Shown here in pieces: positions 7,197 through 27,200 of a stretch of DNA of 35,411 nt. The translations under genes were made by a program, and so were the position numbers. The notes beneath the pieces were generated by a model that was given only the letters and a program-made list of their open reading frames with translations, had not been told where the DNA came from and made no database searches. Origin of the DNA: a virus; the IMG/VR virus record IMGVR_UViG_3300012354_000010, positions 1 to 35,411 of that record. The stretch is one strand, 5' to 3'. How positions within the stretch are numbered: the first letter of the stretch is position 1; each line of letters starts with the position of its first letter.

Positions 7197-7438
7197 TCTT
7201 CCTCCACGTAGTAGACACGCCAGGAGTCTGGTTCGAATTCAATACGCTCGTTGTACGTACGGTGCCAATAGTCGACTATGTCTTGCTGGACTGTTTCTTC
7301 GAGTGCTGCTACACTTACCGCGTTTTCTAGCTCTTCATCGCTGATTACTCCTCTGGCCGTTTTGGTTCCGGATTCTACCTTAATGTTGTAGAGGCACGTA
7401 AGTTCGTCGTACCAAACAAGTGTGTGTATGCTGGTCAT
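7193..7438 (-). CDS. unknown acidic protein, 81 residues
   Basis: A small acidic protein (MTSIHTLVWYDELTCLYNIKV at its start) directly after the DNA polymerase gene, with ATGA overlaps at both ends, so it is translated with the polymerase. It has an aromatic-rich N-terminal strand and an acidic helix ending YYVEEE. No family is recognised. Coupling to the polymerase suggests a replication-associated role, which is inference only. Confidence 0.6.
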   Translation of the reverse strand: MTSIHTLVWYDELTCLYNIKVESGTKTARGVISDEELENAVSVAALEETVQQDIVDYWHRTYNERIEFEPDSWRVYYVEEE

Positions 7439-9792
7439 GACCAGTCACCCCAGCTCCTGCCAAAGTCCGTATCAACTACGAACGGAACGTAATCAGTCCA
7501 CTTGGTACCCTCTTCGACCATGATGCTTCGCATGATCTCTGCAATTTCTTCCTTGCGTGATTCAGGACCTTCTGCGATGAGTGCGTCATGAATCGTAAGA
7601 CGAACGAAGCCAATGCCACGAAGAGCAGGACGGATCCGAATGAATGCTGACAGGCAAATATCGCTTGCGATGGACTGAGGCTTGAAGGAAAGTGCCTCGT
7701 TCTCTACATCCTTCTGGTTCTGCTTTGTAATAAGCCAGAATCGACGTGTGCGGCCGAACGAGGTCTTGAGGTCTTCGCCATTGTTGACAGCACGTTTTAT
7801 TTCGTTTTGCCAACGTACAACGCCTGGGAATCTTCCCATAAGTTCGTCGTACATGTGCGTTGCGTCCTGGACTGACATGCTGTATTCCTGGGCTACGCTA
7901 TAGGGAGTCCGCCCATAAGCCGATCCGTAGAATAGTGCCTTGATCCGGACGCGTTCTTCCTTTCCCCAATTGCCTGTACTGAAGATCTGGTCGCACAGCT
8001 CATCGAAAATGTCACGTGTGTGATCACTAAGCAGACTACGAAGGTGTTCGTCCTGCGCAAGGGTAGCGATTACGCGAGCCTCTGCTTGACTGTAGTCGCA
8101 GTGCACTAGGCAGTTTTCTGGTTTGCTAACTACGAACTGCCTCTTGATAGCCTTGTCTCGTACAATATTTTGCATATTGGGGTTCCTGCTGGACAGTCTT
8201 CCAGAGGTCGTTCCATGTAGTAGATATGTGGTAAACACCCTTCCTTTGTACATTCGCTTTCGTATACCAGTAACATAAGTCGAGTAGAGTTTTTGCTGAC
8301 GACGATGTTCCAGAAGTGTTCGCACGAACTCAGCTGGAGCTTGGTTTGAAAGACGTCTGAGCGTTCCTCCAAGCAGTGGCTTAAGAGTATTGACGTCAGT
8401 CTTTTGTACGTAGACTTGCTGACTAGCAAGATACTCCCTGATCTGTTTTGGCGACCGAGGGTTCAAGAAGGTAAGTTGCTGTACTCCCTCCAGGTTAGAG
8501 GTAGAAGTCTTGACAATTTCGTCAATCCTAGCTTCGAGTGGATTAATGCGCTCAAGGAACGTGTGTACTAGTTCGTTGGAGTACTGACGATCGACCGTAA
8601 TGCCGTTAAGTTCCAAGTACATCAGTTGGTCGGACGCTGCACATAGAAACCGAAGAAGTCTACGTTGGTCGTCGTCAAAGAGTTCCTGCTCGTATTTCTT
8701 TAGGGCCCAGCCATTGCTAACGTCCCAGGCGTTATACTGGTATAGGATTGGTCTAGGGACGTCTCCGTAGTTGCCTCCTGGAGGAATATGCTTCTTGAAT
8801 TCTGCTTTCCAGTTGGGCGCTCCTAGCTTCTCTACACTTAGGACTTCGAGCGAGTGATTGCCAGGACGTTCGTCTAAGACGTAAGATCCCAACATGGTAT
8901 CGAAGCCAAGTTGTAGGGGTCCGAGATGAGGGTAAAGTCCTCCAAGGTCAAACTTGCCGTTGTGAGCCTCGATACTAGATCGCTTAAGTAGCGCCCCGAG
9001 TGAATCGAGCACTCGTCTTTCTCGAAGTGCAGAGTAGCCAATAACCACAACACGTCGCTCAGCATAGCCGAGTCCCACGCACAGCAGATCGTACTCATTT
9101 GGGTGTCCGAAAGAGACGTCTTTTTCAATGCCGCACTCAATATCGACATAGATATCGTTCGATAGCTTCTCGATCTCTCCCATGGCTTCGATGGCCATAC
9201 CACCATCCTCAAAGTACTGCCACTCGGGAGGAGTCCAAGCACTTGTAACACCTGCCTTCAGCTTAGCAATGTCACTTACCATGGAGGGGAAGGCGTCGGC
9301 ATTACGCAAGCAATATGCGGGATGCCAAGTAGGTAAAATACGCCTTACGGACGAATTCTTCAGGGCGCTAGTTGGCTTCTTGGGAGGTCCGACGCGTAGT
9401 CGCGTAATGCCTCTGATGTCGTCCAGAAGGACCGATGCAGCAGTTCCTCCGAGGGCAACAACGTCTTCAACGCCTGAGGCAGCCAGCTCGGCCATAAGGC
9501 GACCACGACAGGCATGGATGGCAGCCTTTGGTGGTGTTGCGTTATCCTCTGGTCGACATAGGCATGCATTGGTGTACATAACTTGGCTGCGGCTTAGACC
9601 GTTGTGACCCAAAACTTGGTCTAGAAGCTTGCCCGACGGGCCCCTGAAGGGTTCCTTGTAAGCTGCCTCGTACTGTCCCGGAGCTTCTCCGACGACTGCT
9701 AGCTTGGGCAGAAGTGGAATCAATGACGGAACGAACTTGCCGTCATCAGCGAGTGGGCAAGACTCACACTCCGCCAATGGGTGCTTCCGCAT
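7435..9792 (-). CDS. uracil-DNA glycosylase/family A DNA polymerase fusion
   Basis: A 785-residue replicative polymerase with three parts. Residues 1 to about 185 form a family 4-type uracil-DNA glycosylase domain: iron-sulfur cysteines C9, C12, C79 and C95, motif GEAPGQYE (35-42) and HPAYCLR (157-163). Residues about 212-365 form a 3'-5' exonuclease with D217/E219, NGKFD and YNAWD. Residues about 380-785 form the polymerase with motif A DYSQAEAR (D566), motif B K618-ALFYG-SAYG (Tyr622 at the nucleotide-selecting position) and motif C HDA (D736), where Ala replaces the usual Glu. The ATG at 9792 follows GAGGTGGG and overlaps the DpdA-like gene by 29 bases. Confidence 0.9.
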   Translation of the reverse strand: MRKHPLAECESCPLADDGKFVPSLIPLLPKLAVVGEAPGQYEAAYKEPFRGPSGKLLDQVLGHNGLSRSQVMYTNACLCRPEDNATPPKAAIHACRGRLMAELAASGVEDVVALGGTAASVLLDDIRGITRLRVGPPKKPTSALKNSSVRRILPTWHPAYCLRNADAFPSMVSDIAKLKAGVTSAWTPPEWQYFEDGGMAIEAMGEIEKLSNDIYVDIECGIEKDVSFGHPNEYDLLCVGLGYAERRVVVIGYSALRERRVLDSLGALLKRSSIEAHNGKFDLGGLYPHLGPLQLGFDTMLGSYVLDERPGNHSLEVLSVEKLGAPNWKAEFKKHIPPGGNYGDVPRPILYQYNAWDVSNGWALKKYEQELFDDDQRRLLRFLCAASDQLMYLELNGITVDRQYSNELVHTFLERINPLEARIDEIVKTSTSNLEGVQQLTFLNPRSPKQIREYLASQQVYVQKTDVNTLKPLLGGTLRRLSNQAPAEFVRTLLEHRRQQKLYSTYVTGIRKRMYKGRVFTTYLLHGTTSGRLSSRNPNMQNIVRDKAIKRQFVVSKPENCLVHCDYSQAEARVIATLAQDEHLRSLLSDHTRDIFDELCDQIFSTGNWGKEERVRIKALFYGSAYGRTPYSVAQEYSMSVQDATHMYDELMGRFPGVVRWQNEIKRAVNNGEDLKTSFGRTRRFWLITKQNQKDVENEALSFKPQSIASDICLSAFIRIRPALRGIGFVRLTIHDALIAEGPESRKEEIAEIMRSIMVEEGTKWTDYVPFVVDTDFGRSWGDWS

Positions 9793-10531
9793 TAGCCCAC
9801 CTCATGTAGGTGTTTACGTTGTGGTCCAGTAGACGACCACTCAATAGTTGTCCGTAGTTCGTTCTGAAGTAGTCCCTCGGACGTATAATTCCTTTAACGC
9901 CAGAGTCTATCCTTTTGCCCGCAGCGGTATAGGAGAAGGGCAACGATGTATCGATCGATCGCACACTAGTGTATTTAGTCGCCGCTGCTACTTCCCTAGG
10001 CCACTGCTCGTTGGCCCCGAGGAAGTGAAGCTTGAACCTATTAGGGTAAACCTGCTCGATCCAGTTGGCAAAGTCGATTCGAGTGTGCAGTTGGCCTAGC
10101 GTTACGGGCATGTGCTTCGGGATTCCGATGGTCGCAATAGATTTGTGCTTAGCAAAGACGTCGACGCAATACCGAAAGTCGGTCAGTCGCCTGCCCTGTG
10201 CAACTGCGAACAGAGCTAGTGTCTCTGAAGGATATACCATTTTGCGAATCCACTTCGACACCTGCTCACATGTCGTTTCGGCTTGGCGTAAGGTGTCTGG
10301 CAGAACGATCTCGTTGGCGTGCAGAGCGTAGGCATATCCTAGTACCTCGAAGGGATCTACCATTTTGCCTTCATAGGCACCATTGTCTATGACAAGGAAG
10401 TGGTGTTCTAGGCGATTCTGGTACGCTACGATGTACTCCGAACGAGTGCACTCCTGTGCAAGGGCTAGGTGAAAGACATAGCGTAGTGCATATCTTTCCA
10501 GGCCTCTTGGGGGTATAAGTCCTACCTTCAA
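9764..10531 (-). CDS. dpdA: DpdA-like DNA guanine transglycosylase
   Basis: A 255-residue protein related to tRNA-guanine transglycosylase. Phage DpdA enzymes exchange guanine in DNA for a 7-deazaguanine base. Conserved landmarks are D49-N-G (base-recognition Asp), VLPD (76-79), AQG (111-113), GIPKH (136-140), FLGAN (170-174) and D194 in SIDTSLPF, the likely nucleophile. It is shorter than bacterial Tgt and I see no C-terminal Cys3-His zinc site. The start is TTG at 10531, 6 bases after GGAG. It lies in one operon with four preQ0 genes, which strongly supports the call. Its DpdA subfamily cannot be assigned by eye. Confidence 0.8.
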   Translation of the reverse strand: MKVGLIPPRGLERYALRYVFHLALAQECTRSEYIVAYQNRLEHHFLVIDNGAYEGKMVDPFEVLGYAYALHANEIVLPDTLRQAETTCEQVSKWIRKMVYPSETLALFAVAQGRRLTDFRYCVDVFAKHKSIATIGIPKHMPVTLGQLHTRIDFANWIEQVYPNRFKLHFLGANEQWPREVAAATKYTSVRSIDTSLPFSYTAAGKRIDSGVKGIIRPRDYFRTNYGQLLSGRLLDHNVNTYMRWANAEAPIGGV

Positions 10532-10532
10532 C

Positions 10533-10835
10533 TCAGTCTCCGTGGGGTACTACAATGCCGTCTCGGCCCAATGGTGTATCTTGAAGTTCAGCTGTCTGCT
10601 CTTCAATTCGACTCCGGAGCATTTCGATCCTGACCCAGAGGTACCTTGCGTAATTAGCTGCGTCCACTAGCTCCTCCTGGAGCATGCGGAGCAGATCGTT
10701 GTCTGATTCAAGGAACTTGATCGGACCGTACTTCTTCTCACCAAGCTCGTGTCGACGCTGGCACTCGTAGTGAAAGGCCGCGTCCAGTATGCGTACCTCG
10801 TGCTTGAGTTGCTCTTCAGTCACGAAGTCACTCAC
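10533..10835 (-). CDS. MazG-like all-alpha NTP pyrophosphohydrolase domain protein
   Basis: A 100-residue helical protein. 'LGEKKYGPIKFLESDNDLLRMLQEELVDAANYARYLWVRI' (about residues 31-70) matches the two core helices of MazG-type enzymes, with EELVDAANYA carrying the metal-binding EExxD pattern. Family members hydrolyse nucleoside triphosphates to monophosphate and pyrophosphate. It ends one base before the DpdA-like start and begins inside the tail of another MazG protein, suggesting control of nucleotide pools in the modification operon. Substrate unknown. Confidence 0.65.
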   Translation of the reverse strand: MSDFVTEEQLKHEVRILDAAFHYECQRRHELGEKKYGPIKFLESDNDLLRMLQEELVDAANYARYLWVRIEMLRSRIEEQTAELQDTPLGRDGIVVPHGD

Positions 10836-11163
10836 GTCCGAACCTTGCTTCGTTGAGGACGTGCTTGCGCTCGTACACCCATTGTGGGTCTATCTCGAGA
10901 AGACCTGCAATGCACAGGAAATACGTAAAGATGTCCGCGACCTCGTTCTCGACTTCTTCCCGCTTTTCGTCCAAGGTGAAATCGCCTCGTACGATCTTCT
11001 TGACTAGATTAGCGAGTTCGCCTACCTCTCCCGCTAGGCACAGAACCTGATTGGGCAGCGTCTGCGTCGCAGGATAGTGACCGAACCACCGACTGCTGTC
11101 CCTATGCGCTCCCTGAGCCATGAGGTACAGCTGGCTATGCCGAATGTGTTCGTCGTGTGGCAC
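10828..11163 (-). CDS. mazG: MazG-type nucleotide pyrophosphohydrolase
   Basis: A 111-residue all-alpha protein. 'LCLAGEVGELANLVKKIVRG' and 'REEVENEVADIFTYFLCIAG' give the classical MazG metal site: EVGEL for the first acidic pair and EVADI for the second. I chose the GTG at 11163, which shares its first base with the FolE stop and follows GGGAG by about 7 bases; the ATG at 11121 lacks a ribosome site. The predicted role is hydrolysis of (d)NTPs, possibly to shape the pool for modified DNA or to cut alarmone signals. Confidence 0.75.
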   Translation of the reverse strand: MPHDEHIRHSQLYLMAQGAHRDSSRWFGHYPATQTLPNQVLCLAGEVGELANLVKKIVRGDFTLDEKREEVENEVADIFTYFLCIAGLLEIDPQWVYERKHVLNEARFGRE

Positions 11164-11867
11164 TAGTGGCTCCCGTTGATATAGGAAAGGAATTCCTGTT
11201 TGGCCGACTTGGAGTGATCTGCAAACACTCCAGTCATTCGTGCTGTTGTTGTGTACGTTCCAGGGACCTGTGCGCCGCGCAGTGTCATACACATGTGCTC
11301 TGCGCGGATGACTACCGCAACGCCTTGAGGTTCGAGTGCCTCCTCCAGGAACTGCGCAATCTGGAACGTGAGGCTCTCCTGGACCTGGAGGCGCTTTGCG
11401 AAGTGCCGAACGACCCGAGCGAACTTGCTGAGTCCTGCAATAGCATTGTTGGGTACGTACCCTACGTGTACCCAACCTGTGAAGGGCACTACGTGGTGGT
11501 TGCAAAGACTCGTAAAGGGAATCTTCTGAACTGTTACTAGGTCCTGGCTCCGAGCTTCAAAAGCTCGCCACTTCATGCATGAAGCATCACAGTCCCTACA
11601 GCTAGTTAGTTCCTGCAGCATGTCAAGAAAACGTACAGGCGTCTCCTTGCCATGCTGGCCGCGTACGTCGAGACCAGTGTGAGTGCGGAGGATCTCGGCT
11701 GCAGCCTCTACAGGTTGAGATTTCTCCCTCTTTGCTATGATCTTTTCGATCGCGTCGAGCTTGCCTTCCATCTGCGCACGAAGCCCAGGAGGCTCACCGG
11801 GAAGATCCGACAGAGATCCCAACGTAGCTTCTAGTTCTTCTCGCGAAGGGATGGGGTCTCCTGGCAT
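11163..11867 (-). CDS. folE: GTP cyclohydrolase I
   Basis: A 234-residue enzyme making 7,8-dihydroneopterin triphosphate from GTP, the first step to preQ0. The core from about residue 110 includes SLCNHHVVPF (C122, H125), HVGYVPN, GLSKFARVVRHFAKRLQVQE and RAEHMCMTLRG (C193). C122, H125 and C193 correspond to the zinc ligands. The usual CEHH is CNHH here (Asn123). The N-terminal ~100 residues are longer than in many homologues and hold an extra C90-x2-C93-x3-C97 cluster. The start overlaps the QueE stop (TGATG) with GAGG upstream. With QueD, QueE and QueC present, a deazaguanine rather than folate role is most likely. Confidence 0.88.
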   Translation of the reverse strand: MPGDPIPSREELEATLGSLSDLPGEPPGLRAQMEGKLDAIEKIIAKREKSQPVEAAAEILRTHTGLDVRGQHGKETPVRFLDMLQELTSCRDCDASCMKWRAFEARSQDLVTVQKIPFTSLCNHHVVPFTGWVHVGYVPNNAIAGLSKFARVVRHFAKRLQVQESLTFQIAQFLEEALEPQGVAVVIRAEHMCMTLRGAQVPGTYTTTARMTGVFADHSKSAKQEFLSYINGSH

Positions 11868-12577
11868 CAGATACCTCGTGCTTCTGGGTCGAAGATGTAC
11901 TTATGAGTTTGAAGATTCAGCTTCCAAGGAACGTCGACTTCGAGCATCCAGGCCACGAGCTCTTTGGCCTCTAGCTTTCCCCAGACCGGACCACAGTAGA
12001 TCTCAATGGGACCTGGAACAGCAAGGTGCACCTTACATGTTTCCAGGGCAGCATCGAAGTCCAAACGGTTAGCGACAGTAAATTTAACTGCACAACCGTG
12101 GTACCTGCTAAACTTGAAGACATTGGTAATGATCGCTCCGTAGTCGATGTTTTCTGCTTCGCCTGATCCTGGAAGTTTCCAATCCATGACTACTGACACA
12201 CCCGGATTGAACACCCAGTGAGGATACACGAACGTTCCGTTACTAAAGAACTCAATTGATTTGCCGTCGCACCAGAGTGCGTAGGTGAGCTTACGCAGCT
12301 CTTCTTCGGGCTGCAGGAAAGGTTCACCACCCGTAATGCAGATGTTATGGATCGTATCGTAATGCGCGTGACTTCTTACTAGCTTGACTAGATCATCGGC
12401 CGAAAAGCTTAGCCACTCTTGTCGGTACTTGCTGGGGTCGATTGCATGTTGCGTATCGCAAGGCCAGCCAGGACAGCGAAGGTTACATCCAGCAAGGCGG
12501 ACGAAGATCGTTGGCGTTCCTACTCTTGGTCCTTCTCCCTGTACTGAACAGTAGATCTCACTGAGCCTCAACTTCAT
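11867..12577 (-). CDS. queE: 7-carboxy-7-deazaguanine synthase (radical SAM)
   Basis: A 236-residue radical SAM enzyme converting 6-carboxytetrahydropterin to 7-carboxy-7-deazaguanine. SVQGEGPRVG (11-20) and VRLAGCNL are typical of QueE, followed by CITGGEPFLQ for SAM binding. The cluster cysteines are C31, C35 and C40, a CX3CX4C spacing instead of the canonical CX3CX2C. I start at the ATG at 12577, preceded by GGAAGGAC; a longer in-frame start at 12634 would add 19 residues lying inside the upstream gene. It is coupled to FolE downstream. Confidence 0.85.
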   Translation of the reverse strand: MKLRLSEIYCSVQGEGPRVGTPTIFVRLAGCNLRCPGWPCDTQHAIDPSKYRQEWLSFSADDLVKLVRSHAHYDTIHNICITGGEPFLQPEEELRKLTYALWCDGKSIEFFSNGTFVYPHWVFNPGVSVVMDWKLPGSGEAENIDYGAIITNVFKFSRYHGCAVKFTVANRLDFDAALETCKVHLAVPGPIEIYCGPVWGKLEAKELVAWMLEVDVPWKLNLQTHKYIFDPEARGI

Positions 12578-12965
12578 CGTCCTTCCAGTACGCTCGTAGG
12601 ATCTGAGCGTTGATGTTAGTGGCAGGATGGTCATGGCCTACTAGTATTGCTCTGTAGTCCTGTACCAGGTAGGCGTGATCCCCAATAGCGAACGGCATAC
12701 CGTACTCAAGTGTCGGTAGGTTCCACCTAGGCTCCTTGTCGGTTTGTACCAATACGAGTCCAAGGTCCAGATCCGTCTGGATGTGTCGAATGCCACTCAA
12801 CGAAGGCAGAGCATGCCAGACACGACCGTGTTCGTGGAGCCGTACGCTCTCGATCATGTAGGTTGCAGGCTCTCGCCATGGCTCATGTGACTCTACGAGC
12901 GTCCCGGCCCTAAAGACTTCGAGGTCGATCTCCAGCTTGGTCTGGTCGTCTGAGTAGTAAGGCAT
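12558..12965 (-). CDS. unknown protein embedded between queD and queE
   Basis: A 135-residue soluble protein, mostly beta by eye, with many His residues (RLHEHGRVWH, VGHDHPATN). It starts at an ATG overlapping the QueD stop (TAATG) and ends 20 bases inside QueE, so it is translated as part of the preQ0 operon. No known deazaguanine enzyme pattern is visible: no P-loop, no radical SAM, no Cys nucleophile motif. It could be an accessory or tailoring factor for the modified base, or unrelated. Confidence 0.65.
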   Translation of the reverse strand: MPYYSDDQTKLEIDLEVFRAGTLVESHEPWREPATYMIESVRLHEHGRVWHALPSLSGIRHIQTDLDLGLVLVQTDKEPRWNLPTLEYGMPFAIGDHAYLVQDYRAILVGHDHPATNINAQILRAYWKDDEVEAQ

Positions 12966-13351
12966 TAGTCAGCTCCAAAATACTCTGCGAATGTACTAGG
13001 CGTCTCGCTTACACGCACCTTCTCGAGTAGGACATCTTCCGGTAGCACAATGTGCTGAGTCTCCATGAACTCAAGGATTCGGTGGTATAGTACCCTGGCT
13101 AGACATTCCGACGTGGGCTGGTTCACCTTGTCGTTCAAGTGTCGATGGTCGAACTCGTTCTTGACCCAATTGCCTAGACCATCAAGGTCGCCAAAGTCAA
13201 AGAGCCAGCCCTGGACGGCAAGCGTCCCACCAATGAACGTAACCTCGATCGTGTACGTATGACCATGTAGGCGGCCACACTTGTGGTTCGGACGTAGACC
13301 ATTCAGCTGGTGCGAAGCGTCGAACGTGAACTTCTTACCGATCCGATACAC
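12965..13351 (-). CDS. queD: 6-carboxy-5,6,7,8-tetrahydropterin synthase
   Basis: A 128-residue QueD of typical length. FDASHQL (H14) and CGRLHGH (C25, H29, H31) give the zinc-binding histidines and the catalytic cysteine. EFDHRHLND (about 66-74), PTSECLA and VRVSETP complete the family pattern. It converts dihydroneopterin triphosphate to 6-carboxytetrahydropterin, feeding QueE. The start is GTG at 13351, after GAGAGGTAGG, overlapping the upstream MazG-like gene by 17 bases. Confidence 0.88.
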   Translation of the reverse strand: MYRIGKKFTFDASHQLNGLRPNHKCGRLHGHTYTIEVTFIGGTLAVQGWLFDFGDLDGLGNWVKNEFDHRHLNDKVNQPTSECLARVLYHRILEFMETQHIVLPEDVLLEKVRVSETPSTFAEYFGAD

Positions 13352-13706
13352 GGATCCTACCTCTCAAGTGGACGGCACGTTCAATGACTTCTTCTAGCAT
13401 TGCAGTCTGACTAGTACAAGACATCTCTTGCATTACCGCTCCAACGTCGCAGACCCAATCCAGGAAGTCCCCGATCGACTCGAGCTCGATTTCTGTCTGC
13501 TTCAGGTAGACAGCAAGGTCGAGTACTTCGTCCAGAGCGTCTCGGACTGAGTTGCGTCCATTGAAAGCTTGAAGGTACGTGCCATACTTTTTGAGTCCGA
13601 AGGCCTTTCGCCACTGCAATTGCTCCACGACAAGGTCATGTATGGAAGGATTGTCGCTGGCTACAGGTCTAGGTTCTCCATTTACGTAGTCCGCAGTGTT
13701 ACCCAT
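13335..13706 (-). CDS. MazG-like domain protein
   Basis: A 123-residue helical protein, third of its kind in the operon. 'FGLKKYGTYLQAFNGRNSVRDALDEVLDLAVYLKQTEIEL' (about residues 34-73) resembles the 10533-10835 protein, with DEVLDLAVY as the acidic metal-binding helix. I start at the ATG at 13706, 10 bases after GAGGAG; an upstream in-frame GTG or ATG would lie within the previous gene. Probable nucleotide pyrophosphohydrolase. The C-terminal ~45 residues form extra helices of unknown role. Confidence 0.6.
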   Translation of the reverse strand: MGNTADYVNGEPRPVASDNPSIHDLVVEQLQWRKAFGLKKYGTYLQAFNGRNSVRDALDEVLDLAVYLKQTEIELESIGDFLDWVCDVGAVMQEMSCTSQTAMLEEVIERAVHLRGRIRVSDR

Positions 13707-13908
13707 TGCGCAGGTACTCCTCAAACACCCTTGCGCTCGTAACTACGCTCTTGGCGCTTGGCGTACTTATGTCGCTTAGCGCTATCGCATTTTCAAGTGC
13801 GACGCTGCGGTAGTCGAAGTCGTGGCAGTAGCCAAGTTCGTTGGCACCCGACGGTGCTGGCGGTACCGGAAAGAGACCTGCGGAAGGAGGATTGTAGTCA
13901 GGATCCAT
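13699..13908 (-). CDS. unknown protein, 69 residues
   Basis: A small protein opening MDPDYNPPSAGLFPVPPAPSG, a Pro-rich disordered stretch, then a helical C-terminus. It overlaps genes on both sides by 8-11 bases, typical of this operon. No family is recognised and no metal site is visible. Its reality rests on the tight packing and an upstream ribosome-site-like AGGAG. Confidence 0.55.
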   Translation of the reverse strand: MDPDYNPPSAGLFPVPPAPSGANELGYCHDFDYRSVALENAIALSDISTPSAKSVVTSARVFEEYLRNG

Positions 13909-14512
13909 TTTGTTCTCCTAGGTGTCGAAGTGCCTTGATTGGCTTGCGAGGCTTGTGCCTCCGGAAGTCGTCTAGTTCAGTAGTCTCGATCTCTACAGTC
14001 TCTCCGTGCAAGACACGAAGGTATGCTTCGATCCATGTCCCTGCCATTAGATCGACTTCCGCTGTTACAATGTTGCCGTCTACCTCTAGGGTACGCTGAC
14101 TGTAGATACAACCGGCCTTAGCAAGTAGGTCCTTTGCGTCTATGGTAGGATAAGCTGCTACTCGTCTACCCTTCGCTATGTGTCGGATAGACACAACCGA
14201 ACTGCAAATAGCTCCCACAGGCTTGTCGGCATAGGTCTCGATGACCTGCTGCAGAGGCTTGTAGTGCCAGTAGAACTGTGAATCCTTAGGGTGTCCTGAA
14301 ATGATCAGGAACCCATCGTACCTTGTGACATCAGGTAGTAGGGCATCGGTAAACGTGTAGTCAGCAGAAACTGCAAAGCTACGGTCCTCGGCGGTGATTA
14401 TCTTTGACCGGGAGAGAATGTAGCTCTTAACCCTCTGCTTCCGTAAAGTCTGTAGCGTTGTCATGAACTCGTGGCGGTTGAACCTTGGGTTCACTACCAG
14501 TAGCACTTCCAT
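13898..14512 (-). CDS. DJ-1/PfpI-fold (class I amidotransferase-like) protein
   Basis: A 204-residue alpha/beta protein. MEVLLVVNPRFNRHEF is the first strand and helix, YDGFLIISGHPKD the pre-nucleophile turn, and VGAICSSVVSIRHIAKGRRVAAYP the nucleophile elbow with a Cys. 'CIYSQRTLEVDGNIVTA' matches the following strands of DJ-1/PfpI proteins. The Cys is followed by Ser where proteases have His, so peptidase activity is doubtful. It shares the preQ0 operon; a role supplying or removing ammonia, or repairing glycated bases, is possible but untested. Its start has a strong GAGGAGG and overlaps the preceding gene by 86 bases. Confidence 0.7.
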   Translation of the reverse strand: MEVLLVVNPRFNRHEFMTTLQTLRKQRVKSYILSRSKIITAEDRSFAVSADYTFTDALLPDVTRYDGFLIISGHPKDSQFYWHYKPLQQVIETYADKPVGAICSSVVSIRHIAKGRRVAAYPTIDAKDLLAKAGCIYSQRTLEVDGNIVTAEVDLMAGTWIEAYLRVLHGETVEIETTELDDFRRHKPRKPIKALRHLGEQNGS

Positions 14513-14855
14513 TCAGTACCTCCTCGAGCTTCATTAGCGGAGGCTCTTGCTGCGGTGACTTGTAGTCTAGGTTGGGCGTTCCGTCGGCGTTTAGGTCGAG
14601 CCTCGCCAAGTAGATTTCGCCCTCGCGCTGGAAGACCTTGAGAGCCAAGTCGTGGTTCTTGATGTAGGTACTCAGTCCCGTAGTGAGCGACATAAGTGAG
14701 CGGTTTGTACCTTCTGCAAGACTACTGCGATCCAGCTTTGCTACTACGGCGTTACTCTCCATGAACGCCTTGATGATTGGGTAGGCAACTCGACCTCTGC
14801 GACCTTGGTGGAAGTTAGGAATCTCGCTCGGATCCACTGGCACAAACTTTACCAT
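14427..14855 (-). CDS. unknown protein, first gene after promoter
   Basis: A 142-residue protein, first in the transcript from the promoter at 14880-14909. Residues about 15-100 are basic and helical (HQGRRGRVAYPIIKAFMES, RSLMSLTTGLSTYIKNHDLALKVFQR), giving a compact fold like a small DNA-binding or regulatory domain. The last ~40 residues are Pro-rich and overlap the DJ-1-like gene. No family is assigned. GAGAAGG lies 5-6 bases before its ATG. Confidence 0.6.
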   Translation of the reverse strand: MVKFVPVDPSEIPNFHQGRRGRVAYPIIKAFMESNAVVAKLDRSSLAEGTNRSLMSLTTGLSTYIKNHDLALKVFQREGEIYLARLDLNADGTPNLDYKSPQQEPPLMKLEEVLNGSATGSEPKVQPPRVHDNATDFTEAEG

Positions 14856-14879
14856 TTTAACCTTCTCCTTTCTACTATA

Positions 14880-14909
14880 AGTATATCATAAGTCTCCTTT
14901 GATTATCAA
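14880..14909 (-). promoter_or_regulatory. leftward sigma70-like promoter
   Basis: On the minus strand, TTGATA (14909-14904) is followed after 18 bases by TATACT (14885-14880), about 25 bases before the start of the 14427-14855 gene. The surroundings are markedly AT-rich. It would drive the operon containing the DJ-1-like, QueD, QueE, FolE, MazG, DpdA and polymerase genes. Confidence 0.7.
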
Positions 14910-14946
14910 CGATTTTTGATGAACTCTTTGGAAATTATTGACACTT

Positions 14947-15408
14947 TTAACTTTTTGTAAGTCGCTTTGGGTCCCACTGCGTATAGAGCGCCCACTGAGC
15001 TTCGGCCAGCGACATCTTGTTGGAACAGACCCTGGAATGCAGATCGTTTTCTACCTTGTCCTTCTTGCGTGCATCATCCCAAGGTTCGGGCCAGAGGTTC
15101 CTATAGTCCTTTGGATTACCCCCTACTTCAAGCGCAATCCAGTGGTCTTCCTCGTAGTGACTCGGGTCCTTATCGACGTACTGAGTGTCGTCACCAAGCT
15201 GCGACATCTTTAGTCGGTGCGTGTAGTCGTTGCTTGGCCTGATTGTCTTTGTGTATCCAGGAGTACAGATGGTTGTCCTGATAGTACTCTGTCGCACGTC
15301 CGCATTGAGTAGGTAGCTTGGCACGTGACCCTTTGAACGCGAAAGTGCAGCAGCCCCTGCAACTAAGAGTGCGCCAGCTACAACAACTGCGATGCTACGT
15401 TTGTACAT
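14947..15408 (-). CDS. predicted exported HNH-like nuclease
   Basis: A 153-residue protein with an N-terminal export or membrane signal: Lys-Arg, then IAVVVAGALLVAGAAAL (residues about 6-22). The C-terminal half holds EEDHWIALEVGG, NLWPEPW and KDKVENDLHSRVC, the pattern of small secreted bacterial HNH-type nucleases with an acidic-His pair, an Asn-Leu-Trp-Pro turn and a downstream Lys/His helix. The ATG at 15408 follows GGGGAA; a TTG one codon upstream is also in frame. It may act outside the membrane on incoming DNA or host wall-associated DNA. Confidence 0.65.
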   Translation of the reverse strand: MYKRSIAVVVAGALLVAGAAALSRSKGHVPSYLLNADVRQSTIRTTICTPGYTKTIRPSNDYTHRLKMSQLGDDTQYVDKDPSHYEEDHWIALEVGGNPKDYRNLWPEPWDDARKKDKVENDLHSRVCSNKMSLAEAQWALYTQWDPKRLTKS

Positions 15409-15434
15409 CAATTCCCCGTCAAACTTGGACTACA

Positions 15435-15513
15435 GCCGTGTGGTGGTCCGTAGTAGCTGCCAGGGCATTGAAGATCCTGAATGCCCAGGGAATTACCCAG
15501 ACCACCACACCGC
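15435..15513. repeat. dispersed palindromic element, copy C (complete)
   Basis: A complete 79-base inverted repeat. Outer arms at 15435-15448 and 15500-15513 match at 13 of 14 positions (GCCGTGTGGTGGTC-type). The central block at 15463-15486 is itself nearly palindromic, with GGGCATT and AATGCCC ends around GATC. The intervening spacers are not similar. It lies 26 bases upstream of the exported nuclease gene and 15 bases after the end of the 15529-15807 gene. Confidence 0.85.
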
Positions 15514-15528
15514 TTGTAATCTGTCGAA

Positions 15529-15807
15529 TTAATCCTGGTGTCCGTTGAGCTTCATTTCGGGTGGAACAAAGCCTACGACTTCGAGGCCTCCGTTTGCAAG
15601 TCGACAAGCTTGAGCAGCTTGAGTCAGTCCTGAAGCAATCATTTCAACTACTGCGGGAACCGATTCTGCCGGAATGAGCAGCGTGGTTTGTAGCGATCCG
15701 CTCGTGACGATCATGGCGGGAGTCTTGAACCCCCGCTGGTCTTGGCCGATCCCAAACTGAACAATTACGTTCGGGGCCTGTACCTGACCTTGAACGGGCT
15801 CAGTCAT
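15529..15807 (-). CDS. unknown protein, 92 residues
   Basis: A small protein that overlaps the QueC stop by 8 bases and starts MTEPVQGQVQAPNVIVQFG. It reads as a beta-sheet half (VIVQF, AMIVTSGSLQTTLLI) followed by an amphipathic helix (AVVEMIASGLTQAAQAC). No motif suggests an enzyme. The fold size resembles small phage regulators, but I do not recognise it. Confidence 0.6.
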   Translation of the reverse strand: MTEPVQGQVQAPNVIVQFGIGQDQRGFKTPAMIVTSGSLQTTLLIPAESVPAVVEMIASGLTQAAQACRLANGGLEVVGFVPPEMKLNGHQD

Positions 15808-16693
15808 TTGACTTCCTCACTGCTGTCCTCCAGAACTCGGTGTTCTCGTACTCCGTCTGGTCGATTGGTATGCACGTTCCAACGGGTCGGTCTCCGTCAT
15901 TCCAACGAGTAATTGCCACATCGATTGCTTCAAGACGCTCGACGCAAGTACCACACTTGCCGCAGTGCTTGCCCCCGCCTCTGTAGCACGACCACGTCAG
16001 ATGAAGGGGCACACCCAGTTCGAGGGCGCGGTAGGCAATGTCTGCCTTGGAGGCGTACAGGAACGGTGCATAGATAGCATCGCCATCGCTTTCGCCCTCT
16101 TCATTGAGGGGGAAACTGTGAAAGCCCTCAGTACCTTTGGTAATTGTGTTGCACACCGAAGAGACGAACTCCGGCCTGCAATCTGGATAGATGGCGTGGT
16201 CGCCCGAGTGGACGCCAATGCCAATACATTTCGCCTTCTCGTTGACTGCAACGCCCGCAGCGATACTGAGCATGATCATGTTCCTGTTCGGAACGACCGT
16301 GGCCTTCATGCTCTCTTCGTCGTAGCTGCCTTCGGGCACCTCGATCGGAGGCTTTGCATAGTCGTATATGTTGATGGGCTTGCCGACCTTGAGGTTCTCG
16401 CCATCTGTCAGCAGTTCATGAGTGCCTGAAGGCAATGACGTAAGGGCACTATTCGAAATTAGGTGTGTTAGTCCAGTCAGGTTGATAATGTCATGCTTGA
16501 GACGAAGGTTTTGTGCGGTAATCATTGCGTACTTCAGCTCTTTGACGTGTCGCTGTCCGTAGTTGAACGACAGTAGGTGTGGACAATAACCCTCTTCAAG
16601 CATGTCGTACACGAGTGTGGTTGAATCTAGACCGCCGCTCACAATGGCAATGCTGTCTGTTTCCATCAGCTTCTCCCCTTTTGGTGCGTTCAT
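15800..16693 (-). CDS. queC: 7-cyano-7-deazaguanine (preQ0) synthase
   Basis: A 297-residue ATP-dependent enzyme turning 7-carboxy-7-deazaguanine and ammonia into preQ0. SGGLDST (19-25) is the PP-loop, VVPNRNMI (133-140) and VHSGDHAIYPDCRPEF the substrate region, and C236, C244, C247 and C250 the zinc site. It is longer than typical QueC (~230), with extra sequence around residues 85-128 and at the C-terminus. No glutamine amidotransferase domain is fused, so the expected product is preQ0. The ATG at 16693 overlaps the primase stop (ATGA) after GGAGAAA; the ATG at 16666 also has a good GGGGAG site. Confidence 0.9.
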   Translation of the reverse strand: MNAPKGEKLMETDSIAIVSGGLDSTTLVYDMLEEGYCPHLLSFNYGQRHVKELKYAMITAQNLRLKHDIINLTGLTHLISNSALTSLPSGTHELLTDGENLKVGKPINIYDYAKPPIEVPEGSYDEESMKATVVPNRNMIMLSIAAGVAVNEKAKCIGIGVHSGDHAIYPDCRPEFVSSVCNTITKGTEGFHSFPLNEEGESDGDAIYAPFLYASKADIAYRALELGVPLHLTWSCYRGGGKHCGKCGTCVERLEAIDVAITRWNDGDRPVGTCIPIDQTEYENTEFWRTAVRKSND

Positions 16694-18879
16694 GTTTTCT
16701 CCGGTCCTACAGCGTAGTATCCCTTTCCCCTCCCGGTGGAAGTCGTGTACACAAGCATACGTTGTTCAATGGTATTGAATATTGCGTTTGCTTGCGTTGC
16801 CGTGAGGTGATAAGCCTGCATAATTTGACTTCGGGTAGACCCAGGACGTGCCTTTATTAGGCCCATAATGCGTTCGACGGTTCGTTCGTCAGCGGTCTTG
16901 CCAACGCCATTGATAATGTCTACTGCGTAGGCACGCCAAGTATCTCCGTAGGTCATGGCCTTCAGAAGGTGCTCCAGTTCTACTGTGACATTCTCGGGGT
17001 TCTGATCTTCCGCAGCGGCTATTAGGACCGCAGCTTTTAGTACTGACTTGCTCAGACGATCGTAGACAGGCGTCATAATTTCTGGACGCTCTGACTCAAC
17101 GCCAAAGTGTAGCATTGCCCGTTCGAACTGCGCATAGCGAGTCCAGGCTTCTGTAGTAAGTCTTGCATCCCATTTCTTTGGGGCGGGAATGGTAACGCCA
17201 GTTACTTTAATGAGCGTGTCTTGTACAACGTGATAGTGGTCCACAATGTTCTGCATTTCGTCAACGAGTGCATTGCGATTGCCAATGTCACGTTCTGTTG
17301 GAGGTCCCAATGGTTGAAGCTTGTTAACATCCGATTCTGCAGTCAGGAAGATGAACCGAGGAAGGAAGCCCGACGATACGTGCTCCAAAGTCACCAACGA
17401 TTGCATTCGGTTTTTAATTCCCCCAGCGAACACAATCAGGATTGGGTCCTTCACTTCAATGGTTTCCTTGCGCAGGATCCTCTTCTGTGTTCTTCCGTCG
17501 TACAGCTTCGTTAGTAGCTCGGACATTCCTGCCATGTAGTCACGTTTGGACATCGACTCTAGCAGTCCTGTTACTTCGTCGCGTAGGAAGATAGAGGACC
17601 TGTTGGGGCGTACTGAAAGTCCAGTCAACAATCCTTCAATGGAACCGTCTGCGGTTGCCATAATAGCGTCAGGGTCGACCTCAGCTAGGAGATCGGCCGA
17701 GATGTCCATGGCAGTAGACTTTCTAGTCAAGGTCGTATCGCCCAACAGCATAAACCACAAGTTAGGCAGTATTCGACCGAAGGATGTCCGTAGGACAACA
17801 CAATTCGCTAGTAGTGCTGATAGTATGACGAAGGCCCCAGCCTGATGGTACTGAACAGCTGCATCGCCAAGCCCGGAAGCCCATTCGATGTACCTCTCGA
17901 CGAAGGTTTGTTTGTCTGCAACACTCTTGATTTCCTCGTCGGAAAGAATAGGTCCGAGGACACTTTCAGGTGCAACAACGGCCTGTAGGTTCTGCCGGTA
18001 CTTAGTATGAGCTCTTCCGATGTCCTTCCATAGATCGTTAGGTCTCCCGTCACGTGCAAACTTGTTGTAGGCCGAATCTCTCGCTACCTTGAAGACTTCT
18101 TCCCGAGACAGACCTACCTCGAAAAGGGTCACTTCTAGACTGAAGAGTGTTTTACTCCAGTCTTCGCCTTCTTCAGGCTTGGCTTCAAGTTGTGCCCAGA
18201 CGCGATCAGGGACTCTTTCTGCGAACCGAGCTAGAATTTCCTCGCTCGACTCCGTTGGTAGGTCTTCCTCTAGTGGCGATTCTATGTAGTCTACGCCTAC
18301 TGGTTCGGGGTACTTCGAGAAGTCTTGGACTCGATAATTTCTGACACCTACACCAATGATCTTAACTAGGGGACTACCTGAATACTTGTGGTTGTACGTT
18401 CCTGGTATACGTAGTACCTGCGAAAGGTCCCACCCTGACTTGTCAACTCCGAGGTCTGCATGGCTGTATGCAATGCGCTTCGAGATGCCTTGGGCCGTAG
18501 TGGGATCGGTTGATTCCTCAAATATCCAGTAGGCCTGGTACCTGTCCGGTGAACTCTGGACCTCTATGGAGGCTGGAGTTGATAGTGATTCCGGACGGCA
18601 TGTATCTAGATCAGCCCAGGCACAGGGGCAGGATACAACGTCGTTCTTAGTCCTCCTGGTAGTTGAAAGTAGTTGGGGACAAAAGTAAACGTCGAACGTT
18701 TCTCTCTTCGAGAGACAGAACTCTGACAGCTCGGCTAAGGACTTCGGCCACTCGAAGAAGCAGTCGCGCCATACTTTCTTTTCTCTGTCGAAGAGAGAAA
18801 TGCAAATGAACCCTTTGCCAGATACGCTGCCAAACATGACAGCAAAGAAAGTCTGTATTACATCGAAGTCCTCAGTCAC
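16690..18879 (-). CDS. primase-helicase (AEP primase fused to DUF3987-type ATPase)
   Basis: A 729-residue replication protein. The N-terminal ~200 residues look like an archaeo-eukaryotic-type primase: WADLD (D90, D92) and SGWDLSQVLRIPGTYNHK. The middle holds a RecA-like ATPase with Walker A GDTTLTRKST (Lys387) and Walker B IFLRDEVTG about 45 residues later. The last ~65 residues form a winged helix (RSQIMQAYHLTATQANAIF). I start at the GTG at 18879, 10 bases after GAGGG, because longer in-frame sequence runs into the tRNA-like gene. It overlaps QueC, so primer synthesis, unwinding and base-modification genes share a transcript. Confidence 0.8.
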   Translation of the reverse strand: MTEDFDVIQTFFAVMFGSVSGKGFICISLFDREKKVWRDCFFEWPKSLAELSEFCLSKRETFDVYFCPQLLSTTRRTKNDVVSCPCAWADLDTCRPESLSTPASIEVQSSPDRYQAYWIFEESTDPTTAQGISKRIAYSHADLGVDKSGWDLSQVLRIPGTYNHKYSGSPLVKIIGVGVRNYRVQDFSKYPEPVGVDYIESPLEEDLPTESSEEILARFAERVPDRVWAQLEAKPEEGEDWSKTLFSLEVTLFEVGLSREEVFKVARDSAYNKFARDGRPNDLWKDIGRAHTKYRQNLQAVVAPESVLGPILSDEEIKSVADKQTFVERYIEWASGLGDAAVQYHQAGAFVILSALLANCVVLRTSFGRILPNLWFMLLGDTTLTRKSTAMDISADLLAEVDPDAIMATADGSIEGLLTGLSVRPNRSSIFLRDEVTGLLESMSKRDYMAGMSELLTKLYDGRTQKRILRKETIEVKDPILIVFAGGIKNRMQSLVTLEHVSSGFLPRFIFLTAESDVNKLQPLGPPTERDIGNRNALVDEMQNIVDHYHVVQDTLIKVTGVTIPAPKKWDARLTTEAWTRYAQFERAMLHFGVESERPEIMTPVYDRLSKSVLKAAVLIAAAEDQNPENVTVELEHLLKAMTYGDTWRAYAVDIINGVGKTADERTVERIMGLIKARPGSTRSQIMQAYHLTATQANAIFNTIEQRMLVYTTSTGRGKGYYAVGPEKT

Positions 18880-18913
18880 ACATGTCTCACCCTCTTCTGT
18901 TAGTTCACTTCGT

Positions 18914-19022
18914 GGGCCCGGCGGGAATCGAACCCGCGGAGAGCACATTGTGGGCTGTGCTCCAGTTTGCACTGAGGCTGGGGAAGTTAAGTGCAAACGC
19001 TCTACCATTGAGCTACGGACCC
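18914..19022 (-). tRNA. tRNA-like gene with aberrant anticodon region
   Basis: Read leftward, the acceptor stem is perfect (GGGTCCG at the 5' end with CGGGCCC at the 3' end, one G-U). The D arm is canonical (GCTC-AATGGTA-GAGC) and the T arm exact (GCGGG-TTCGATT-CCCGC). Between them are two long hairpins instead of one anticodon arm: an 8-base-pair stem with a 16-base loop (TTTGCACT/AGTGCAAA) and a 7-base-pair stem with an 8-base loop (GAGCACA/TGTGCTC). The gene is 109 bases, CCA is not encoded, and no normal 7-base anticodon loop is present. It may be a tRNA with an insertion or a tRNA mimic. Confidence 0.6.
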
Positions 19023-25437: not shown

Positions 25438-25737
25438 CTACCTCTCTAGGTACGAGACTTCGCCAGTAGCGCTTACAGTTATCAGGAGTGTGCGGGGTGG
25501 ACGCGGCCCGCCAGCAAAGAGTACATGGACAAGCCAAACTATCCATAGCAGTCCGCACGTGAAAATTCCTCCGACCGCGTACAGCACATGCGTGTCTCGG
25601 CTGATGCCACTAGAGCCACCGGAAGTTAGCGTTGCCGACCTTTCAGTCTGTGCAACTAGCTGCCAACCACCTACCTGTGCAGTGGTGACCAGCTGCTCGA
25701 GGAGCTCGCTGGGACTAGTTTCGTTCGTAGTAGTCAT
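25438..25737 (-). CDS. membrane protein with one or two segments
   Basis: A 99-residue protein starting at the ATG at 25737 (TAATG with the helicase stop). The N-terminal half (LLEQLVTTAQVGGWQLVAQTERSATLTSG) is a small soluble unit. Residues about 54-76 (LYAVGGIFTCGLLWIVWLVHVLF) are strongly hydrophobic, followed by a short beta tail (TLLITVSATGEVSYLE). The plan resembles small actinobacterial membrane proteins; role unknown. Confidence 0.55.
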   Translation of the reverse strand: MTTTNETSPSELLEQLVTTAQVGGWQLVAQTERSATLTSGGSSGISRDTHVLYAVGGIFTCGLLWIVWLVHVLFAGGPRPPRTLLITVSATGEVSYLER

Positions 25738-27200
25738 TATGCATCTCCTAGGAGTTCCTTGATTACTTTCCACTTCATTTCGACTTGATCGAGACGTTGC
25801 GCATCAATTGTTCCACGCGCGCAGATATCGATAATCTCGATGTTGTTCTTCTGTCCAATACGATGAAGGCGATCTTCAGCCTGAAGGTTAACGCCGGGCG
25901 AGGGATGCCTGTCCAGAAAAACCACCACCGAAGCAGCAGTGAGGGTGAGACCCACGCCACCAGCAGATATTGTTCCTGCAAATATCCTTTTACGACCAGA
26001 CTGGAATCCTTCCACCAAAGTAAGGCGGTCCGCCTGCGGCGTGTTGCCAGTGAACAGCACGTGGGAGATATTGTGACGAACCATCCTAGCGGCAAACATT
26101 TCCATGATCTGTCTACTTTTGCTAAAGACGACGAACTGTCTGTCCTCATCCTGAATCCTCTCCATCAGCGCGTCAAGCTTACTGGAGGGTTCAGTGAGAA
26201 GAAGAACGGGTTTCATTACCCAGTCGCCATCTTTGTTCCGTACTTTTCTCTCCTCAATCCTAGCGTACGCCCCCGCGAACTGTTGTAGCCGAACGAGCTG
26301 TGCGACTACGATTGGTGCAGCAATTGGTTCGTTCTCGTGCTCTCCTACCCATGCCAGCATGTTCTTGCGCATTGCGTCGTATGCGCGACGTTGTTCGGGG
26401 TGCAGTTCAACTTCCATCCTTTGTGGTGGATACTTTTCGGGTAGTTGCAGGTTGACTTTTGGGTCAATTTTCAGTCTTCGGATGAAGTATGGAGCTATGC
26501 GAGCTTGGAAACCTGCTGGGTCAACAAGGCCTAGTACTTCATTGTATGCGTTCTTGTGCATACCGCCACAGCCTACTGCTGTACAGACTCCCACAGTATG
26601 TCTCTTGGCCACGATTTCGTTGTTGTAGAATCTCCAGTAGCTCGTCCAGGTACGTGGGTAGAGCCAGTTCAGAATGCTCCAGATGTCGTCCGGACGGTTG
26701 TCGGCAGGCGTGCCCGTCAGCCCTAGCTTGTGCATCGTTGGAAGCTTCTTGAGTCTTGTTGTCTGCTGCGCCTTGCGGTTCTTGGCCCTGTGTACCTCAT
26801 CTGCTATTACGTGGAACCAGTGCAACCTTGCCAGTTCTGGCATCAGGCGCAGACTCTCCCAGTGACAGATGAAGACATCTGCTACGGTTGAATCTACTGC
26901 CTTTAGGAAGGCTTGTCGATTTTTCCTATCTAGGACCGTAATCTTCAGGCTAGGGTTCCAGAGGCTGAACTCACGTTTCCAGACGCCAAGCATTGAAAGT
27001 GGTGCTACTACTAGCGTGCATAGTCTGCTTCGTATCGTTCCGACTTCGGCAACGAGTTTGCGTCGTTCCTTGTCCAGAAGGATAGCCTCGATCGTTTTAC
27101 CGAGGCCCAGCTACATGTCGTCCGCGCAGAGAAAGTTGGGTACGGCAAGAGCCTTTTCAACCATTTCCTGCTGGAACTTATACGGTTCCAAGGACGACAT
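25737..27200 (-). pseudogene. SNF2-family helicase interrupted by TAG in Walker A
   Basis: A 487-residue DEAD-like ATPase frame, in one phase throughout, except for a TAG at codon 30. It starts at the ATG at 27200 (TAATG, GGAGGT upstream). SNF2 motifs are otherwise intact: ADEVHR (II, near residue 134), GLTGTPADN (III), FVVFSKSRQIMEMF (IV), GTISAGGVGLTLTAA (V) and EDRLHRIGQKNN (VI). Walker A reads ADDM-stop-LGLGKT where the family has ADDMGLGKT, as if six bases (TAGCTG, plus-strand 27108-27113) were added. It may be a pseudogene, a read-through product, or an assembly error. The downstream part has no obvious restart. Confidence 0.75.

Follow-up and report, generated by a model that had tools for sequence, protein, structure and literature searches.

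A candidate guanine-replacement operon with a distant DpdA-like transglycosylase beside the DNA polymerase of an uncultivated phage

The virus record IMGVR_UViG_3300012354_000010 is a linear sequence of 35,411 bases, and the window analyzed here is the whole record. It comes from an uncultivated virus of bacteria and is probably a fragment of a larger genome, since several of its relatives are 51–62 kb long. The minus strand carries a gene set bounded upstream by a replication primase/helicase (16690–19008; phrog_10514, E = 3.2e-96; PF13148 and PF16793) and at its other end by a DNA polymerase; between them lie, in order, genes for QueC, a DJ-1/PfpI-family protein, QueD, QueE, FolE, two small MazG-like proteins and a DpdA-like protein, with several ORFs without known function interspersed among them. 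Many gene ends in this set overlap or abut, the primase gene overlapping the start of queC and the polymerase gene the 3′ end of the DpdA-like gene, and scans for promoters and terminators found no excess of matches over shuffled sequence. The polymerase (7435–9792, minus strand) carries a uracil-DNA glycosylase (UDG) domain (PF03167, E = 4.1e-24) fused to a family A polymerase (PolA; PF00476, E = 4e-65), and related polymerases come after the DpdA-like gene in relatives. A SNF2-type helicase is encoded on the same strand at 25737–26993.

The original prediction had placed FolE, QueD, QueE, QueC and a DpdA-like protein in one leftward set with the polymerase, and all were found there, on the minus strand. 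FolE (11163–11867), a GTP cyclohydrolase I converting GTP to H2NTP, matches PF01227 at 188.9 bits and NCBIfam NF006826 above cut-off. QueC (15800–16693), a 7-cyano-7-deazaguanine (preQ0) synthase that is not Gat-fused, scores 163.3 bits against TIGR00364 (cut-off 150.3) with its SGGLDSTT and CX7CX2CX2C motifs intact; both proteins exceed curated NCBIfam cut-offs. QueD, the 6-carboxytetrahydropterin synthase (12965–13351; PF01242, E = 1.2e-29; metal and catalytic motifs ASH..KCGRLHGH and DHRHLN intact), and QueE, the 7-carboxy-7-deazaguanine synthase (11867–12634, likely start 12577; phrog_2076, E = 4.9e-33; PF13353), pass Pfam cut-offs and keep their metal or cluster residues, yet fall below the NCBIfam equivalog cut-offs. 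The cluster motif of QueE (11867–12577, minus strand) reads CX3CX4C (CNLRCPGWPCDT), whereas radical-SAM proteins usually have CX3CX2C; the variant is common to many relatives, other members of the same set and four bacterial relatives have the canonical motif, and a literature search found no paper on the variant.

The remaining genes of the set, also on the minus strand, are less readily assigned. The gene beside the DpdA-like gene (10533–10835) encodes a small conserved protein, probably an all-alpha MazG-like NTPase judging from an EExxD motif seen by eye, with no family match above noise and with relatives beside DpdA in 29 related loci. Its neighbor is a MazG-like pyrophosphohydrolase (10828–11121; PF03819, E = 2.3e-5, above cut-off) whose likely start is 11121, a longer ORF of this gene overlapping folE. 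About 30 loci have this pair of small MazG-like proteins (10533–11121) conserved at the same position, with FolE on one side and DpdA on the other. The protein encoded between QueE and QueD (12558–12965) has no family match and weak relatives in two loci only, and that at 13335–13724 is a phage protein, possibly NTPase-like, from a family of unknown function (phrog_7609, E = 1.5e-23). The DJ-1/PfpI-family protein (13898–14512; PF01965, E = 2.5e-12) is not a core member of the set, being common among the relatives only to L015 (34% identity). Eight related loci encode a small secreted-looking protein between QueC and QueD/QueE (L008 6862–7386, L009 1337–2002 and six more).

The DpdA-like gene (9764–10531, minus strand) has a TTG start and encodes 255 amino acids. 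It had been expected to match DpdA or Tgt profiles; as a single sequence it does not, with no match in Pfam, NCBIfam or PADLOC, PHROG matches only to families without known function, and nothing useful from a scan of PDB sequences. A profile of its family, searched against all PDB sequences, recovered the bacterial DNA-guanine transglycosylase 7UI4 (E = 1.1e-4) over the catalytic half; among rows with E up to 10 there was no tRNA-guanine transglycosylase (TGT), and the sole other row was an unrelated chain (0.33). Structure prediction gave a high-confidence model (pLDDT 94.4) with a TGT-like TIM-barrel fold (against 1IQ8, Z 16.9 and rmsd 3.4 over 225 residues; Foldseek E = 3.8e-7). Its best solved-structure matches are TGTs, which fill the structure matches listed, and we did not count the absence of 7UI4 among these against a DpdA assignment; matches in the viral structure library include annotated phage transglycosylases and the nt-1 protein R9TGF0. 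Because these family-level methods recover the protein, its failure against the profile libraries is one of divergence.

Seven residues do not vary among 32 family sequences: D49, N50, D79, H169, G172, D194 and N238. By motif order and a weak hhalign alignment (probability 42), not by superposition, H169 aligns with H196 of 9g. On the same two grounds we take D49, D79 and D194 to correspond to D102, D156 and D280 of the Zymomonas TGT; by this analogy the nucleophile would probably be D194, and the catalytic and base-binding acids would be D49 and D79. Profile and structure together identify the protein as a putative distant member of DpdA, the transglycosylase family that swaps preQ0 for guanine in DNA, an assignment that survived both tests.

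The surroundings of the gene are conserved. With FolE as bait we retrieved 36 loci from uncultivated viral contigs, some of them near-copies, whereas direct scans of the viral_contigs collection with DpdA-like proteins and with PolA gave no matches. A DpdA-like gene lies near FolE in 32 of the 36, and three of the other four end before its expected place; the polymerase follows it in 30 of the 32. Such recurrence of gene set and order in 32/36 independently fetched loci, near-copies included, is far beyond chance. The one relative that tblastn found for the DpdA-like protein is in Weizmannia phage Youna2, where it too is encoded between FolE and PolA. Searching onward from Youna2 gave relatives in phages of Bacillus, Brevundimonas and Flavobacterium; the Flavobacterium one is annotated as a DNA guanine transglycosylase. 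In the isolates Youna2, BSTP12 and StAshley the gene adjoins a related polymerase. In a tree the protein of the record belongs to a group of 24 with support of 98/95, and the branches outside this group are long; among the sequences retrieved here, the uncultivated group with this gene comprises about 25 distinct ones.

The family profile matched strongly, once each, in Campylobacter phage CP220, Cellulophaga phage phiST, Flavobacterium phage immuto, Youna2 and StAshley, and had no match in 9g, nt-1, Dp-1, HVTV-1, phi38:2 or phiSM. A second model, built from 24 uncultivated members including the record's own protein and with the named phages left out, still found CP220 (3.7e-18), together with phiST and immuto, the next match standing at 0.93; the CP220 match is therefore not circular. 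These comparisons place the predicted DpdA of the record with the CP220/phiST/immuto type, as opposed to the 9g or nt-1 type. We presume this type to be the published DpdA3 group, the name that Cui et al. reportedly gave in 2023 to the type with complete guanine replacement.

Together, these features probably make up a phage DNA hypermodification operon within the replication module, in which preQ0 is made and then swapped for guanine by the DpdA-like enzyme. FolE, QueD, QueE and QueC would convert GTP to free preQ0, and the transglycosylase would exchange guanine for it in phage DNA, after or during replication; the resulting dPreQ0 would stop guanine-reading restriction enzymes of the host, and would thereby probably hide the genome from host defenses. 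That such a gene set is the one expected for guanine replacement by a 7-deazaguanine is supported by known systems, the same arrangement yielding dPreQ0 in Rosebush and CAjan.

Which base is inserted, and whether DNA receives it, can be weighed against three other readings. In the least probable, the genes would serve to increase the queuosine content of host tRNA, with the DpdA-like protein acting as a tRNA-guanine transglycosylase, as its best fold match among solved structures might suggest. We regard this as highly improbable: the C-terminal zinc-binding Cys/His site of TGT is missing (the only cysteines are at 28, 88 and 122), the family profile matches 7UI4 and no TGT sequence, there is no QueF to make preQ1, and the gene is placed beside the polymerase. 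Scarcely more credible is that preQ0 becomes a deoxynucleotide inserted by the phage polymerase, with another role for the DpdA-like protein. The polymerase does adjoin, DpdA has two small MazG-like NTPases as neighbors, and an earlier proposal for Campylobacter phages had the base inserted at the nucleotide level (PMC6884629). However, the TGT-type active-site residues are intact, no phosphoribosyltransferase was seen in the set, and CP220 encodes a DpdA-like relative, which removes the reason for the Campylobacter proposal. We infer that DNA is the substrate of base exchange by the DpdA-like enzyme.

A stronger competitor, though still an unlikely one, is a further change of preQ0 to dADG, dG+ or another derivative, made either before the base is inserted or afterwards. 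The gene responsible would be an unrecognized one, such as that for DJ-1/PfpI or one of the ORFs without known function inside the set. CP220, with the same DpdA type, has dADG (PMC8306585), for the making of which we know of no assigned enzyme, and one distant relative, L041, has a Gat-QueC, the only one among 21 related records. Against this, and as the original prediction had noted for QueF and a Gat-fused QueC, no QueF, Gat or ArcS-type (DUF5591) domain passes cut-off anywhere in the 35,411-base record. The record is probably a fragment, though several relatives of 51–62 kb also lack QueF and Gat. The weak QueF match in the record falls on FolE itself, and of the weak QueF matches in 17 records none passes cut-off, those compared by position again falling on FolE. 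Within the set, the clade as a whole shares no additional gene. DJ-1/PfpI was considered as a nitrile-converting enzyme and is unsupported in that role: because only L015 shares the gene and CP220 has none (it is missing from 19 of 21 related records), we do not give it the step. A preQ0-modifying gene could lie outside the fragment or be present in unrecognized form.

Since no such domain passes cut-off, dPreQ0 is our best guess for the base in the phage DNA, as had been suggested; the original prediction was thus right about the genes and probably right about the base. In phages with FolE, QueD, QueE, QueC and a DpdA, dPreQ0 makes up 28% of G in Rosebush and 32% in CAjan, and a CAjan dpdA mutant loses it (PMC6884629). 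All dG of CP220 is reported replaced by dADG (PMC8306585), and as the record's DpdA appears to be of the CP220/phiST/immuto type, dense or complete replacement is predicted. By contrast, preQ0 phage isolates show about 30% dPreQ0 (PMC6884629), and complete or almost complete substitution of guanine by preQ0, the nitrile base, in this lineage is a tentative proposal that we think more apt to fail than to hold.

This kind of system is already known. Like Rosebush and CAjan, which have no amidotransferase and give dPreQ0, the record has a predicted DpdA and the four preQ0 enzymes typical of Group 2 preQ0 phages, FolE, QueD, QueE and QueC (PMC6884629); no amidotransferase domain passes cut-off in this probable fragment. 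It differs from 9g, which is similar to CAjan in preQ0 pathway, in that the family profile leaves the 9g DpdA unmatched, a difference read from 9g alone. Profile matches and invariant residues put its transglycosylase in one family with those of CP220, phiST and immuto, and the record also shares with phiST the order DpdA-MazG-FolE-QueE-QueD. However, the fetched stretch of phiST lacks an annotated QueC, CP220 carries dADG, immuto has an annotated QueF, and none of the three has the full UDG-PolA neighbor arrangement. Like Youna2, BSTP12 and BSP7 (Bacillus) and StAshley (Brevundimonas), the record has its DpdA-like gene adjoining a related polymerase with QueC, QueD, QueE and FolE near, but the DpdA proteins of these isolates are only about 21–26% identical to it and are annotated as hypothetical or misnamed, and Youna2 and BSTP12 have a thymidylate-kinase-like gene beside DpdA. 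The profile match over its catalytic half likens the protein to 7UI4 of the bacterial dpd island, which differs in being a 436-amino-acid bacterial protein from a larger dpd gene set; PADLOC found no other Dpd proteins in the record.

To what was known our analysis adds three things: it assigns the transglycosylase to the CP220 type, it predicts dense replacement, and it shows how large the uncultivated clade is in which the record's DpdA is a divergent member. The chemistry is open to testing now, since isolates with the same arrangement exist (Youna2, BSTP12, BSP7). A CP220-type DpdA that annotation easily misses forms part of the replication module in diverse uncultivated phages, and guanine replacement in the environment is therefore probably undercounted.
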